6,971 nucleotides of DNA from Bdellovibrio sp. Lineage in GTDB: Bacteria > Myxococcota > SpSt-1050. Location of the stretch: assembly GCA_020725805.1 (NCBI GenBank), contig DYEF01000007.1:1-6971 (forward strand), read 5' to 3'. The translations under genes were made by a program, and so were the position numbers. Shown one piece after another: positions 2,567-6,900 of the stretch. The notes beneath the pieces are model-generated. The model was not told the DNA's origin, did not search any database, and saw nothing but the letters and a program-made list of their open reading frames with translations. The stretch's first letter is position 1; the number at the start of each line of letters is the position of its first letter.

Positions 2567-4801
2567 ATGATGACGGAAGATACGAATCTCAGAAATACAG
2601 AAATTGCACCGGAGGAACAGGAACAGGCTCTGGACCTGAGGGAACTCTGGATAGTCATACTGAAGAGAAGATGGGCTATTACTATGTTCTTTCTCACTGT
2701 TATGACTATTGTAATGATTTATACTCTCAAACAGCCCAAGATATATCAGGCCACAGCGTCAATCGTTATTGAACCTCAGGCACCCGAGGTTCTCTCAGGT
2801 GTAAGAGAGGTGGTGGACCTCGGAACAGGCGGATACTGGACCAACAAGGAGTTTTACGAGACACAGTATAATATCATAAAATCGCGTGCAATTGCAAAAA
2901 GGGTCATCGAGAAACTCGGACTCGACAAGGATTCCCATTTTCTGGGACTGGATGTAGTAAAGGACCCAAAAGAGAGAGAGGCCCTTGCCAAAAAGGTGGA
3001 CCCGGTAAAAAAACTCATATCCAAGATTACCGTGGAACCTGTCAAGAATTCCAGAATGGTTTATATAAAGGTGGAAGATACGAATCCCGAGTTTGCGGCA
3101 CTTCTTGCCAATTCCATTGCAAATGCATATATGGAGGCCAATCTTGATATAAAACTCGATGCGACAAGAAGTGCGGGAGACTGGCTCTCCGACCAGCTGC
3201 AGGACCTGAAAGAGAAGGTTGAGAAATCCGAATCGGCCCTGCACAACTTCAAGAAGGAACACAATATTCTCTCTGTATCCCTCGAAGACAATCAGAATAT
3301 GCTCTCCCAGAGACTTAGGAGTCTTTCGGAGGCGCTCAATAAGATGGAGGTGCAGAAGATAGAACTCAAGTCGATGAGAGATATAGTACTGAAGGTGCGG
3401 GATGACCCCTCGAAGATAGACTCCCTTGATATGGTCTCCCAGAACTCCCTGATTCAGAAGCTCAAGGAAGAGTATGTAAAGACGAGGAGTACATTTCTGG
3501 ATATCGCGGAAAAATACGGAGAGAAGCATCAGAAGTATCAGGTAGCAAAGAAACAACTCGAACTTGTCGAATCAAATATCAGACAGGAGATGAACAACAT
3601 CATTGCAAGTTTTGAAAACAAATACACCGCCATTGTCAATACCATAAATGAACTAAAGCGGTCTATCGAGGAGACGAAACAGCAGGCGATGGACCTGAAT
3701 AAGCTGGAAGTTGATTATATCAAACTCAAACGGGATGCAGACAACAACCTCAATCTCTATCAGATAGTACTCAAGAGACAGAAGGAGACCGACCTGACGG
3801 GTCTTCTGAAGGCAAATAATGTCAGGAAACTGGATAATGCCCTTGTCCCCACAGTGCCGATAAAGCCGAAACTCAACATAAATCTTCTCATAGGTGCTCT
3901 TATTGGCATTTTCGGTGGTATTGCGCTCGCATTTTTCCTGGAGAGGGTCGATAACACCATCAAGACACAGGAAGATATCGAAAGGTATCTCAAACTCCCG
4001 TTTCTGGGTCTCATTCCCCTTATCAAGGAGGACGATGTAAAGACTCTCGAACAGAAGGGGATACCGAAGGACCTGTTTATCACCGAATTCCCCAAGTCCT
4101 CCGTTGCCGAAAGCTGCAGGGCAATAAGGACAAATCTGATGTTTCTGAGCGCAGAAAAGAGGATAAAGGCCATAGTCGTGACAAGTGCCGGACCTCAGGA
4201 CGGGAAGACGATTACCGCTACATCTCTCTCGATTTCACTTGCACAGACCGGCAAGCGTACACTTATAGTGGATACAGATATGAGGAAGCCAAGAGTTCAC
4301 AAGGCATTTGGTGTTGAGAACTCAAACGGTATTTCCAATTACCTTATCAGTGATGTCTCGCTTGCGGATGTGGTGCGTCCTACCGGTATAACCAATCTCT
4401 TCGTCTGCCCCTGCGGACCGATTCCGCCGAATCCTGCCGAACTTATGTACACACAGCGGTTTAAGGAGTTTGTAAGAGAGGCGAAGGAATCGTTTGATAT
4501 AGTCATCTTTGATTCTCCCCCCGTTGCCGCTGTTACGGACGGAGTGGTAATCTCCAAATTAGTCGACGGTGTGATTATTGTAGGTAAGGCAAAGAAGACA
4601 ACCAGAAATGCCCTTTTACAGGTAAAGAAACAACTCAAGGATGTCAATGCACATATAATAGGTATGATTCTCAACGAGATCGACCTCGAGAGCAAGGAAT
4701 ACAATTATTACTATTACTCGTACTACTACAGACATTACGGTTACTATTACGGCGCTGATAAGTATGAAAAAGAGAAGAAAAAGAAGCTTATCGGACTATG
4801 A
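2567..4801 (+). CDS. wzc: Wzc-type polysaccharide co-polymerase with BY-kinase domain
   Basis: This 744-residue inner-membrane protein should control chain length and export of an extracellular or capsular polysaccharide and autophosphorylate on tyrosine. The domains run in the usual order. They are a Wzz-type N-terminus (about 20-70) with a first membrane segment (36-54), a periplasmic region (55-437) with long coiled coils (about 205-270 and 320-390), a proline motif (P428, P431, P434) and a second membrane segment (438-458). A cytoplasmic kinase follows. It has an E-x2-R-x2-R motif (E515, R518, R521), known in BY-kinases for oligomer contacts, then Walker A AGPQDGKT (541-548), Walker A' TLIVDTDMRKP (565-575) and Walker B DIVIFDSPP (644-652). 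The tail (712-733) has 13 tyrosines in 22 residues, the expected autophosphorylation cluster, and ends in a Lys-rich stretch. All key residues are present and length fits a fused Wzc. No Wza, Wzx/Wzy, glycosyltransferase or Wzb-like phosphatase gene is in the window, so the substrate polymer is unknown. Symbol by family likeness. Confidence 0.93.
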   Translation: MMTEDTNLRNTEIAPEEQEQALDLRELWIVILKRRWAITMFFLTVMTIVMIYTLKQPKIYQATASIVIEPQAPEVLSGVREVVDLGTGGYWTNKEFYETQYNIIKSRAIAKRVIEKLGLDKDSHFLGLDVVKDPKEREALAKKVDPVKKLISKITVEPVKNSRMVYIKVEDTNPEFAALLANSIANAYMEANLDIKLDATRSAGDWLSDQLQDLKEKVEKSESALHNFKKEHNILSVSLEDNQNMLSQRLRSLSEALNKMEVQKIELKSMRDIVLKVRDDPSKIDSLDMVSQNSLIQKLKEEYVKTRSTFLDIAEKYGEKHQKYQVAKKQLELVESNIRQEMNNIIASFENKYTAIVNTINELKRSIEETKQQAMDLNKLEVDYIKLKRDADNNLNLYQIVLKRQKETDLTGLLKANNVRKLDNALVPTVPIKPKLNINLLIGALIGIFGGIALAFFLERVDNTIKTQEDIERYLKLPFLGLIPLIKEDDVKTLEQKGIPKDLFITEFPKSSVAESCRAIRTNLMFLSAEKRIKAIVVTSAGPQDGKTITATSLSISLAQTGKRTLIVDTDMRKPRVHKAFGVENSNGISNYLISDVSLADVVRPTGITNLFVCPCGPIPPNPAELMYTQRFKEFVREAKESFDIVIFDSPPVAAVTDGVVISKLVDGVIIVGKAKKTTRNALLQVKKQLKDVNAHIIGMILNEIDLESKEYNYYYYSYYYRHYGYYYGADKYEKEKKKKLIGL

Positions 4802-4821: not shown

Positions 4822-4848
4822 TTGACAGAGAAAGTTTCGGGATATATT
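4822..4848 (+). promoter_or_regulatory. Promoter of the small basic protein gene
   Basis: A perfect TTGACA (4822-4827) is followed by TATATT (4843-4848, 5 of 6 bases) after a 15-base spacer, or by TATTTT (4845-4850, 4 of 6) at the optimal 17-base spacing. Transcription would start around 4855 and give a leader of about 40 bases. It lies wholly in the gap after the wzc-like gene, which suggests the small gene is expressed independently. Confidence 0.55.
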
Positions 4849-4859
4849 TTTTCACCAGC

Positions 4860-4880: not shown

Positions 4881-4895
4881 CAAAAGGAGGATTAA

Positions 4896-5003
4896 GTGGC
4901 AAGGTCCAAGAGTAAACACAGACTTATGAAAATGAAGAGAAGGATAAAACACAAGAAGAAACTTAAAAGGCTGAAGAAGGCGAATAAAGTCAAGACCAAA
5001 TAA
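4896..5003 (+). CDS. Small, highly basic protein (35 residues)
   Basis: A GTG start at 4896 lies five bases after an excellent Shine-Dalgarno sequence AAAAGGAGG (4882-4890). The frame encodes MARSKSKHRLMKMKRRIKHK followed by 15 more residues (including KLKRLKKANK) and stops at TAA (5001-5003). More than half of the residues are Lys or Arg, with no acidic residue, no Cys and almost no aromatic residue. Such composition is typical of rRNA-binding proteins. The sequence recalls tiny ribosomal or ribosome-associated proteins, for instance the AURKAIP1/COX24 (mS38-like) pattern of 'KKRRxKhKKxKRLKK', but I cannot assign it to a family with certainty. The strong ribosome binding site, own promoter and clean intergenic placement argue that it is real despite its size. 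A DNA- or RNA-binding role is the obvious inference. It stands between the wzc-like and DUF6178-like genes, neither of which explains it. Confidence 0.75.
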   Translation: MARSKSKHRLMKMKRRIKHKKKLKRLKKANKVKTK

Positions 5004-5004
5004 A

Positions 5005-5023
5005 AATCTGAAGAATTCAGATT
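5005..5023. terminator. Perfect 8-bp hairpin after the small gene
   Basis: AATCTGAA (5005-5012) and TTCAGATT (5016-5023) form a perfect stem with a GAA loop, two bases after the stop codon of the small gene. On the + strand no T-tract follows. On the - strand the stem is followed by TTTTT (complement of 5002-5006). It may be an mRNA 3'-end stabiliser or a weak terminator; it is not a canonical Rho-independent terminator for the + strand. Confidence 0.35.
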
Positions 5024-5103: not shown

Positions 5104-6900
5104 ATGAAAATTACTATTAAAGAACCGCAGGCACTCACATTTGAGGAGTTCGAAAAACTTTCACCCGAGGAAAAACTCCTTCTGCTGCCTCTAATGCCTC
5201 CGAAAAAGAGGTTTGACTTTCTGACAGATTCAAGAGATGCGGGAGCTCTTGTAAAGGCGTCTCCGGTGGTTGACCTTATTGTAACGGTTAAAGAGGTAGG
5301 TCTCGAAGGGGCGGGCGCTCTTCTCGCCCTGTGTGACAGTGAACAGATACAGTATTTTATGGATATGGATACCTGGGACGGATACAGGTTTGACAAGGAA
5401 CGTGCCCACAGATATCTGATGGTCTTGAGGGAATGGGACAGGGATGTGCTCAGGGAGAAATTCAGCGGGCTCGACTACGAACAGCAGCTTATATACTTTC
5501 TAGGTGATTTTAAGGTCTTTCTTGCAAAGGAGGATTTTGACCCTGATGAGGGTATCCCAGAAGATAGTTTTACAATTGACGGTGTATATTACATTTCTCC
5601 GGCCCGTGACGAGGAAGATGAGATCCGGTGTGACGAAGAGAAAATTCTTCTGACCAAAGAACTTCTGACCCTTATTATGGAAACCGACAGAAATCTGTAC
5701 CTGAGACTAGTGGAGGGGATGAGACAGGAGCTGTATTCCGTGCTCGAAGAGGACCTTTATCGTGTAAAGTCTTCGAGAATAACAGAGCTCGGTTTCTACG
5801 AATATGACGATGCAATTAGGCTCTATTCGGAGCCCACCAATATTAAGAGGGAGATTATCCCAAAGAGGGTTGAGCAGTTCTCGTACTCGAGGCTGCCGGT
5901 CAGGTATGTAAGAGATATAAAGCCGCTGGACGAGGGTCTGGAATCAATCGATGAGAGAACGGCACTCGAAATTCTCTTCGAAATACAGATTCTTATAAAC
6001 CGCCTTATAGTTGCCGACAGGCTCGATATGTTCGAGATAGAATCGCTTAAGCTCTCTTCCGAAAAGGTCAAATCACTTCTGAGGCTAGGACTTGAGGTAA
6101 TGACTTCAGAGATGGGTATATCTAACTCCGAGGCAATGAAAAATTACTATGTAATCGATATATTCAGACACGGCTATAAAAAGCTGAAATTTATAAGAGA
6201 TGATGCCAGAAGAATCAGGTCTGTGCATCAGTATCTGCGGCTTGTTGAACTCCCGCAGTATTTCGAATATCTTTTAAGGATAGCCGCTACTAACTTTGCA
6301 GAAATTGACATGAGAGAGATATTTTCAGATGCATATTCGGAGTATCCGCAGTCCCTTTCGGAGGTGGAAAAGCTCAGTGAACTGCTCCGGGAACTGGAGG
6401 CATCTCTGGATATCATCATCAGGTGTTTTGATGTTACGGTTGAAGATATCGGGAAATCTGACTTTAAGGGTACAAATATCCCGTCAGATTCGAAGCCCAC
6501 ACTGTTCAACCTCCTTATGACTCCGGTTGCTAATAATTATTTGGGGAAAGGCTTCAGGTATCAGCCCATTAAAAGTGATGAACTCGAATCTTTATGCAGG
6601 CTCTCTTTTGTTAAAAAAGACGGCGGGATATATTTGTCGGAAGATTTTCTGAAAGACCTTGAAGATAATCTCTTTTCGAAGATAAAGGAGAATAATCCCG
6701 GGTACCAGTACGCCCGCAGAATAATGGGAAGAGTGCTCGAGGAATTTATATCCGAACTAGGATATATCGATGATTTTTCTTCTCTAAAACCTGAATTTAT
6801 CAGCATAATAACCCTTCGTAAACCCGATTTTTATGTAACTGCAACGTCAAAATGTTACATTTCTGCAAAATTAAAATGTTACATTTTTCGGCTTCATTGA
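5104..6900 (+). CDS. DUF6178-like protein of unknown function with a replaced C-terminus
   Basis: This 598-residue soluble, mostly helical, acidic-looking protein has no signal peptide, membrane segment or catalytic motif that I can name. Several blocks match my memory of DUF6178: 'ALLALCDSEQIQYFMDMDTW' (72-91), 'YFLGDFKVFLAKEDFD' (131-146), 'FTIDGVYYISP' (156-166) and 'EEDLYRVKSSRITELGFYEY' (215-234) with following 'DDAIRLYSE'. That family has no established biochemical function. The start is supported by AGAGGGAG five bases upstream. The natural family end seems to be reached near 'LKPEFISIITLRK' (about residues 561-573). From V578 onwards the reading enters a repeat array (TSKCYI/AKLKCYI), so the last ~21 residues and the stop codon appear to be foreign, supplied by a putative insertion sequence end. 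The protein core should be intact, so it may still function. Family assignment rests on recalled patterns, not on a search. Confidence 0.75.
   Translation: MKITIKEPQALTFEEFEKLSPEEKLLLLPLMPPKKRFDFLTDSRDAGALVKASPVVDLIVTVKEVGLEGAGALLALCDSEQIQYFMDMDTWDGYRFDKERAHRYLMVLREWDRDVLREKFSGLDYEQQLIYFLGDFKVFLAKEDFDPDEGIPEDSFTIDGVYYISPARDEEDEIRCDEEKILLTKELLTLIMETDRNLYLRLVEGMRQELYSVLEEDLYRVKSSRITELGFYEYDDAIRLYSEPTNIKREIIPKRVEQFSYSRLPVRYVRDIKPLDEGLESIDERTALEILFEIQILINRLIVADRLDMFEIESLKLSSEKVKSLLRLGLEVMTSEMGISNSEAMKNYYVIDIFRHGYKKLKFIRDDARRIRSVHQYLRLVELPQYFEYLLRIAATNFAEIDMREIFSDAYSEYPQSLSEVEKLSELLRELEASLDIIIRCFDVTVEDIGKSDFKGTNIPSDSKPTLFNLLMTPVANNYLGKGFRYQPIKSDELESLCRLSFVKKDGGIYLSEDFLKDLEDNLFSKIKENNPGYQYARRIMGRVLEEFISELGYIDDFSSLKPEFISIITLRKPDFYVTATSKCYISAKLKCYIFRLH

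Follow-up and report, generated by a model that had tools for sequence, protein, structure and literature searches.

The locus analyzed here raises the question of whether a frame of just 35 codons, situated between two long genes, is a real gene and, if so, what kind of protein it encodes. Tiny ribosomal proteins, such as bS22, bL37, and bL38, tend to surface late, usually only upon ribosome imaging. An earlier note on the window (i.e., the whole stretch of 6,971 nt analyzed here) had described an overlooked gene for a 35-residue, very basic protein and read it as RNA-binding and perhaps ribosomal. We followed up this description with homology searches, estimates of selection, structure prediction, and comparisons with known small ribosomal proteins.

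Gene, product, and flanking sequences

The gene occupies positions 4896..5003 of the forward strand, and the frame translates into VARSKSKHRLMKMKRRIKHKKKLKRLKKANKVKTK, ended by TAA. Of the features described earlier, the following were confirmed: a GTG start, the Shine-Dalgarno sequence AAGGAGG (4884..4890, forward strand) 5 nt before it, the TAA stop, and a product devoid of aspartate and glutamate. Lysine (14) and arginine (5) account for 19 of the 35 residues (54%), while the calculated pI is ~12 and the molecular weight 4344. The same-genus relative has the Shine-Dalgarno sequence as well (aaaaggaggactcaGTG). As the codon directly preceding the GTG is an in-frame TAA, no start other than the GTG would preserve the conserved N-terminus. 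Codons 1–10 (4896..4925, forward strand) read M-A-R-S-K-S-K-H-R-L and, based on alignments, carry the family signature MA[R/N]SKSK[H/Q]xR, with leucine at residue 10 in the window protein vs. arginine in > 90% of the family members. AlphaFold2, run with single-sequence input, predicted one helix spanning residues 5–34 (mean pLDDT 94.7). Common gene callers apply a minimum of 90 nt, which the 105 coding nt exceed.

A promoter-like site (TTGACA-17-TATTTT, 4822..4850, forward strand) that matches the consensus at 10 of 12 positions had been claimed as the gene's own promoter. The sequence is present, but such sites are not in excess in the window (14 found vs. 12.4 ± 3.4 expected from shuffles), and no TTGACA-type site occurs at the locus of the same-genus genome (L068), where the gene begins 37 nt past the upstream gene; a promoter of its own is therefore not supported. 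Upstream lies a Wzz/tyrosine-autokinase (exopolysaccharide) gene (2567..4801, forward strand) and downstream a DUF6178 gene (5104..6900, forward strand; Pfam PF19676, E 2.8e−84), and both are the neighbours in the same-genus genome too.

Selection and conservation in close relatives

The same-genus copy (L068) reads VARSKSKHRRMKMKRRIKYKKKLKKLKKAKQAVLK, starts with GTG, has AAGGAGG at 5 nt and is flanked by the same two neighbours, so that both the frame and its Shine-Dalgarno site are kept at the syntenic position. Between this copy and that of the window synonymous sites are saturated (pS 1.08) and pN is 0.17, while in 51 pairs of closer relatives the pooled pN/pS was 0.37, with pS > pN in 49 of them. 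Purifying selection acts on the protein. The earlier note had named the loss of the syntenic frame and the lack of protein-level selection as grounds for abandoning the gene, and it came through on both.

A short ORF between two genes could also be a leader peptide, or an upstream ORF that regulates the gene behind it, and in the window an 8-bp perfect inverted repeat without a T run (AATCTGAA-gaa-TTCAGATT, 5005..5023, forward strand) follows just past the stop codon. This explanation is very improbable and largely refuted, as the amino acids are kept despite the saturated synonymous sites, the neighbours vary between lineages, and the repeat was not seen downstream of the gene in the same-genus relative.

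Distribution of the family

In 58 relatives, short ORFs that are homologous to the gene and share its N-terminus already emerged from a single-sequence search. In the profile search, one copy was found in ~135 of the 195 genomes of the host phylum, probably Myxococcota (raw count 136, minus L069 in G026, a copy that lacks a start codon). Of the 149 good-quality genomes in the phylum, 113 had a single copy, and in one family this was the case for all 18 good genomes; in several other families the profile search found no member, which makes the distribution patchy. Alignments showed M1, S4, K5, S6, and K7 to be conserved columns, with mostly A2, H/Q8, and R10 in addition. The conserved signature is thus the N-terminal SKSK[H/Q]xR, and not the 'KKKLKRLKK' core that the earlier note had read as pointing to RNA binding.

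Outside the phylum, the profile recovered 15 credible members with a proper start in 14 family-level lineages (e.g., MARSKSGRVRRRTLIHQQQKRRLKRKKQTLKKTA, preceded by taaggaggtgattga), so that 'lineage-specific', the earlier wording, proved too narrow. Nine of these 15 were compared with their own shuffles using a myxococcotal-only profile: they scored 24.6–53.3 bits, eight of them were reached by none of 1000 shuffles and the ninth (L156) by 5 of 1000. For the other six (L131, L132, L134, L135, L145, and L148) the basis is the profile E-value together with the start and the Shine-Dalgarno site. At least 5 nt matched the Shine-Dalgarno sequence ahead of 45 of 60 phylum members (window included) and of 14 of the 15 outside members, vs. 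9% for background ATG/GTG codons. Besides L069, the member counts leave out L157, which was not assignable, and L129/L149 (G195), which have an internal stop. In the latter, a likely member (contig C84, near 77713–77805), the fifth codon is TAG vs. AAG in the others (MGRS*SKQRIIRNRIRLNWKRRKKRKKAAEG...): the copy may be broken, the sequence erroneous, or the stop recoded, in a genome that is 59% complete.

A chance ORF in a stretch biased towards basic residues would be conceivable for just 35 codons. Homologues across the phylum and in other lineages, their starts and Shine-Dalgarno sites, and purifying selection refute this reading, to which we assign a practically negligible probability. The single-copy homologous ORFs throughout the phylum, together with purifying selection and strong Shine-Dalgarno sites, make 4896..5003 more than a chance frame: it is a real gene.

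The family comprises highly basic, single-helix proteins of 29–60 residues (rarely longer) with the signature M[A/P][R/N]SKS[K/G][H/Q]xR, and has no curated model. Scans of 39 members against Pfam and NCBIfam gave no credible match to any curated model, while in control scans both collections recognised bS22 and bTHX, and Pfam also eL41. Consequently, none of the families suggested earlier (AURKAIP1/COX24, which is bS22, as well as bTHX and bS21) found support. PHROGs returned weak single-member matches only, no chain among the PDB sequences was matched by the family profile, and single-sequence searches gave nothing credible. No description of the family was found in the open-access literature. 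A phage- or plasmid-borne origin was considered as well and rejected, as tblastn with one Myxococcus-like member as the query returned no match from either phages or plasmids.

Gene neighbourhoods across the family

Some members sit among translation-related genes: between hflX and leuS in two genomes (L131, L153), ahead of rplU-rpmA-obg in one (L135), and two genes downstream of an rRNA-methyltransferase-like gene in L071, all identified by eye in simple ORF calls and without a background rate. The neighbours in the window (exopolysaccharide kinase and DUF6178) are non-translational, and across the phylum a Peptidase_S58 gene is the neighbour met most often; its recurrence suggests that much of the phylum shares a conserved neighbourhood unrelated to translation. 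Gene context gives modest backing to a ribosomal reading. At numerous loci of the phylum (L074, L078, L089, and L096 among them) the Peptidase_S58 (DmpA-type) gene was located directly upstream.

In two lineages (L132, L147) the small gene is directly preceded by a gene for a protein of ~350–380 aa, and in L132 the two genes share 13 nt. The N-terminus of this larger protein (MAKKKSRSTNIARKREKRNRNRKSRQKQ...) is strongly basic and ribosomal-protein-like; the L132 protein, the one that was scanned, had no Pfam match.

Proposed function

We propose, with a probability of roughly 0.6, that the members of this family are small structural ribosomal (rRNA-binding) proteins. In favour are the protein-level selection, the synteny kept within the genus, and the credible members outside the phylum; tiny size, extreme basicity, a single copy, an M-A or M-P N-terminus, and near-universality within lineages all fit tiny ribosomal proteins. 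The predicted helix is very basic and RNA-binding-like, and the gene is single-copy and nearly universal within its lineage (113/149 in the phylum, 18/18 in one family), with some other families lacking it. From these properties we infer rRNA binding and incorporation into the ribosome. The data are best explained by a small ribosomal protein, which upholds the general reading of the earlier note; the specific families it had suggested do not share in this support.

Mechanistically, once the initiator methionine has been removed, the conserved N-terminal SKSK[H/Q]xR tip, together with the Lys/Arg faces of the one long helix, may insert into an rRNA pocket, which they would neutralise and brace in the manner of bS22, eL41, and bTHX at their respective sites.

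Against a ribosomal role speak the patchy distribution, the non-translational neighbours in the window, and the PDB search without a profile match; moreover, a helix rich in Lys/Arg would bind RNA or DNA whatever its origin. The main rival is a nucleic-acid binder outside the set of structural ribosomal proteins: a mini nucleoid or histone-H1-like protein, an RNA chaperone, or a factor that binds the ribosome conditionally. A single, extremely basic helix would suit any polyanion, the Ala/Lys/Pro C-terminal tails of some members (L074–L080, L090) resemble H1-like tails, and the distribution is patchy. We nevertheless regard such a function as unlikely, because the strict single copy, the conserved N-terminal motif with its specific Ser/His positions, and the translation-gene neighbours of some members fit the ribosome better.

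If the ribosomal proposal is true, one more ribosomal protein would be added, with a wide yet patchy distribution; even if the protein is non-ribosomal, a conserved family without a curated Pfam or NCBIfam model gets defined. The definition was made from sequence alone; with its signature, any genome can be screened, and ribosome maps or proteomes of Myxococcus-type bacteria can be checked for the protein.

Comparison with known small ribosomal proteins

bTHX is a tiny, basic protein of the 30S subunit with a limited distribution. The family resembles it (PF17070, TIGR04560) in being tiny and basic, but its members match neither model while the control does, and against the family profile bTHX scored lower than the median shuffle of itself; an identity with bTHX was thus rejected.

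The N-terminus invites a comparison with bS20 (PF01649), which begins with MAN[T/I]KSAxKR, superficially as in MANSKSKxxR, and the bS20 model TIGR00029 matched two members weakly (best E 0.18). Unlike bS20, which is a three-helix protein, the family members lack helices 2 and 3. A bS20-derived fragment was rejected on three grounds: a normal bS20 is present in 26 of the 28 carriers tested, including the window's genome, where the bS20 gene (L178) is separate from the family member; there was no Pfam match; and bS20 N-termini scored mostly within the shuffle range against the family profile (the best was reached by 33 of 1000 shuffles). One genome estimated as 100% complete (G323) has a family member (L156, MARSKNKQKKKSLDFKRKRTRRIQRKK...), yet no bS20 match was obtained in the search.

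bL37 and bL38 are recently discovered small or overlooked 50S proteins of some phyla (PMC10618245, PMC10085706). The point of difference comes from the PDB search as a whole, in which no chain matched the family profile.

A further parallel to be weighed is bS22. A divergent bS22 (uS22/mS38/eL41-type) in the h27/h44/h45 pocket of the 16S rRNA, too diverged for the models, would share the size, the basicity, and the predicted helicity, and the site may be free in the phylum, since no COX24_C/bS22 was found above cut-off in 189 of its genomes. Sequence is moreover a weak arbiter here: the family profile scores bS22 no better than bS22 shuffles, but actinobacterial vs. Bacteroidota/Borrelia bS22 profiles likewise fail to find each other beyond composition, and a profile-profile alignment of the family with bS22 (hhalign) gave one meaningless column. 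Against this, PF08213/NF047430 had no match to the 39 members at E ≤ 10, while the bS22 proteins of M. smegmatis and of a genome outside the phylum (G224) matched PF08213 above its cut-off, and alignments A2 and A3, set against COX24 loci, lack the GSVxKxRRxK[M/I]xxHKxxK signature. G224 has both a family member (L130) and a canonical bS22 (L207, MGSVIKKRRKKMRKHKHKKLMEKMRHKKKK), on contigs that agree in tetranucleotide use (r 0.87). Identity with bS22/COX24 was rejected given this co-occurrence and the lack of a Pfam or NCBIfam match, and we consider the divergent version doubtful, more so than a non-ribosomal nucleic-acid binder. That the family is a previously undescribed ribosomal protein, placed at an rRNA site which no known ribosomal protein occupies and found alongside both bS22 and bS20 within one genome, is a tentative extension of the ribosomal proposal to which we give slightly less than even odds.

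Among known systems, the family resembles bS22 (PF08213, NF047430; mitochondrial mS38; functional analogues eL41/aL41), which is ~30–36 aa long, basic, helical, often GTG-started and unannotated, and binds an rRNA pocket (PMC10085706, PMC10618245). The family differs in its motif, an N-terminal SKSK[H/Q]xR vs. the VxKxRRxxMxxHK of bS22, and in a longer, variable C-terminus. Both bS22 and eL41 are 55–65% basic helices within an rRNA cavity (PMC10085706, PMC10618245; see also PMC6582356), and the bS22 of Borrelia, with its GUG start resembling the GTG of the window gene, was likewise unannotated and was discovered only from cryo-EM density (PMC10618245).
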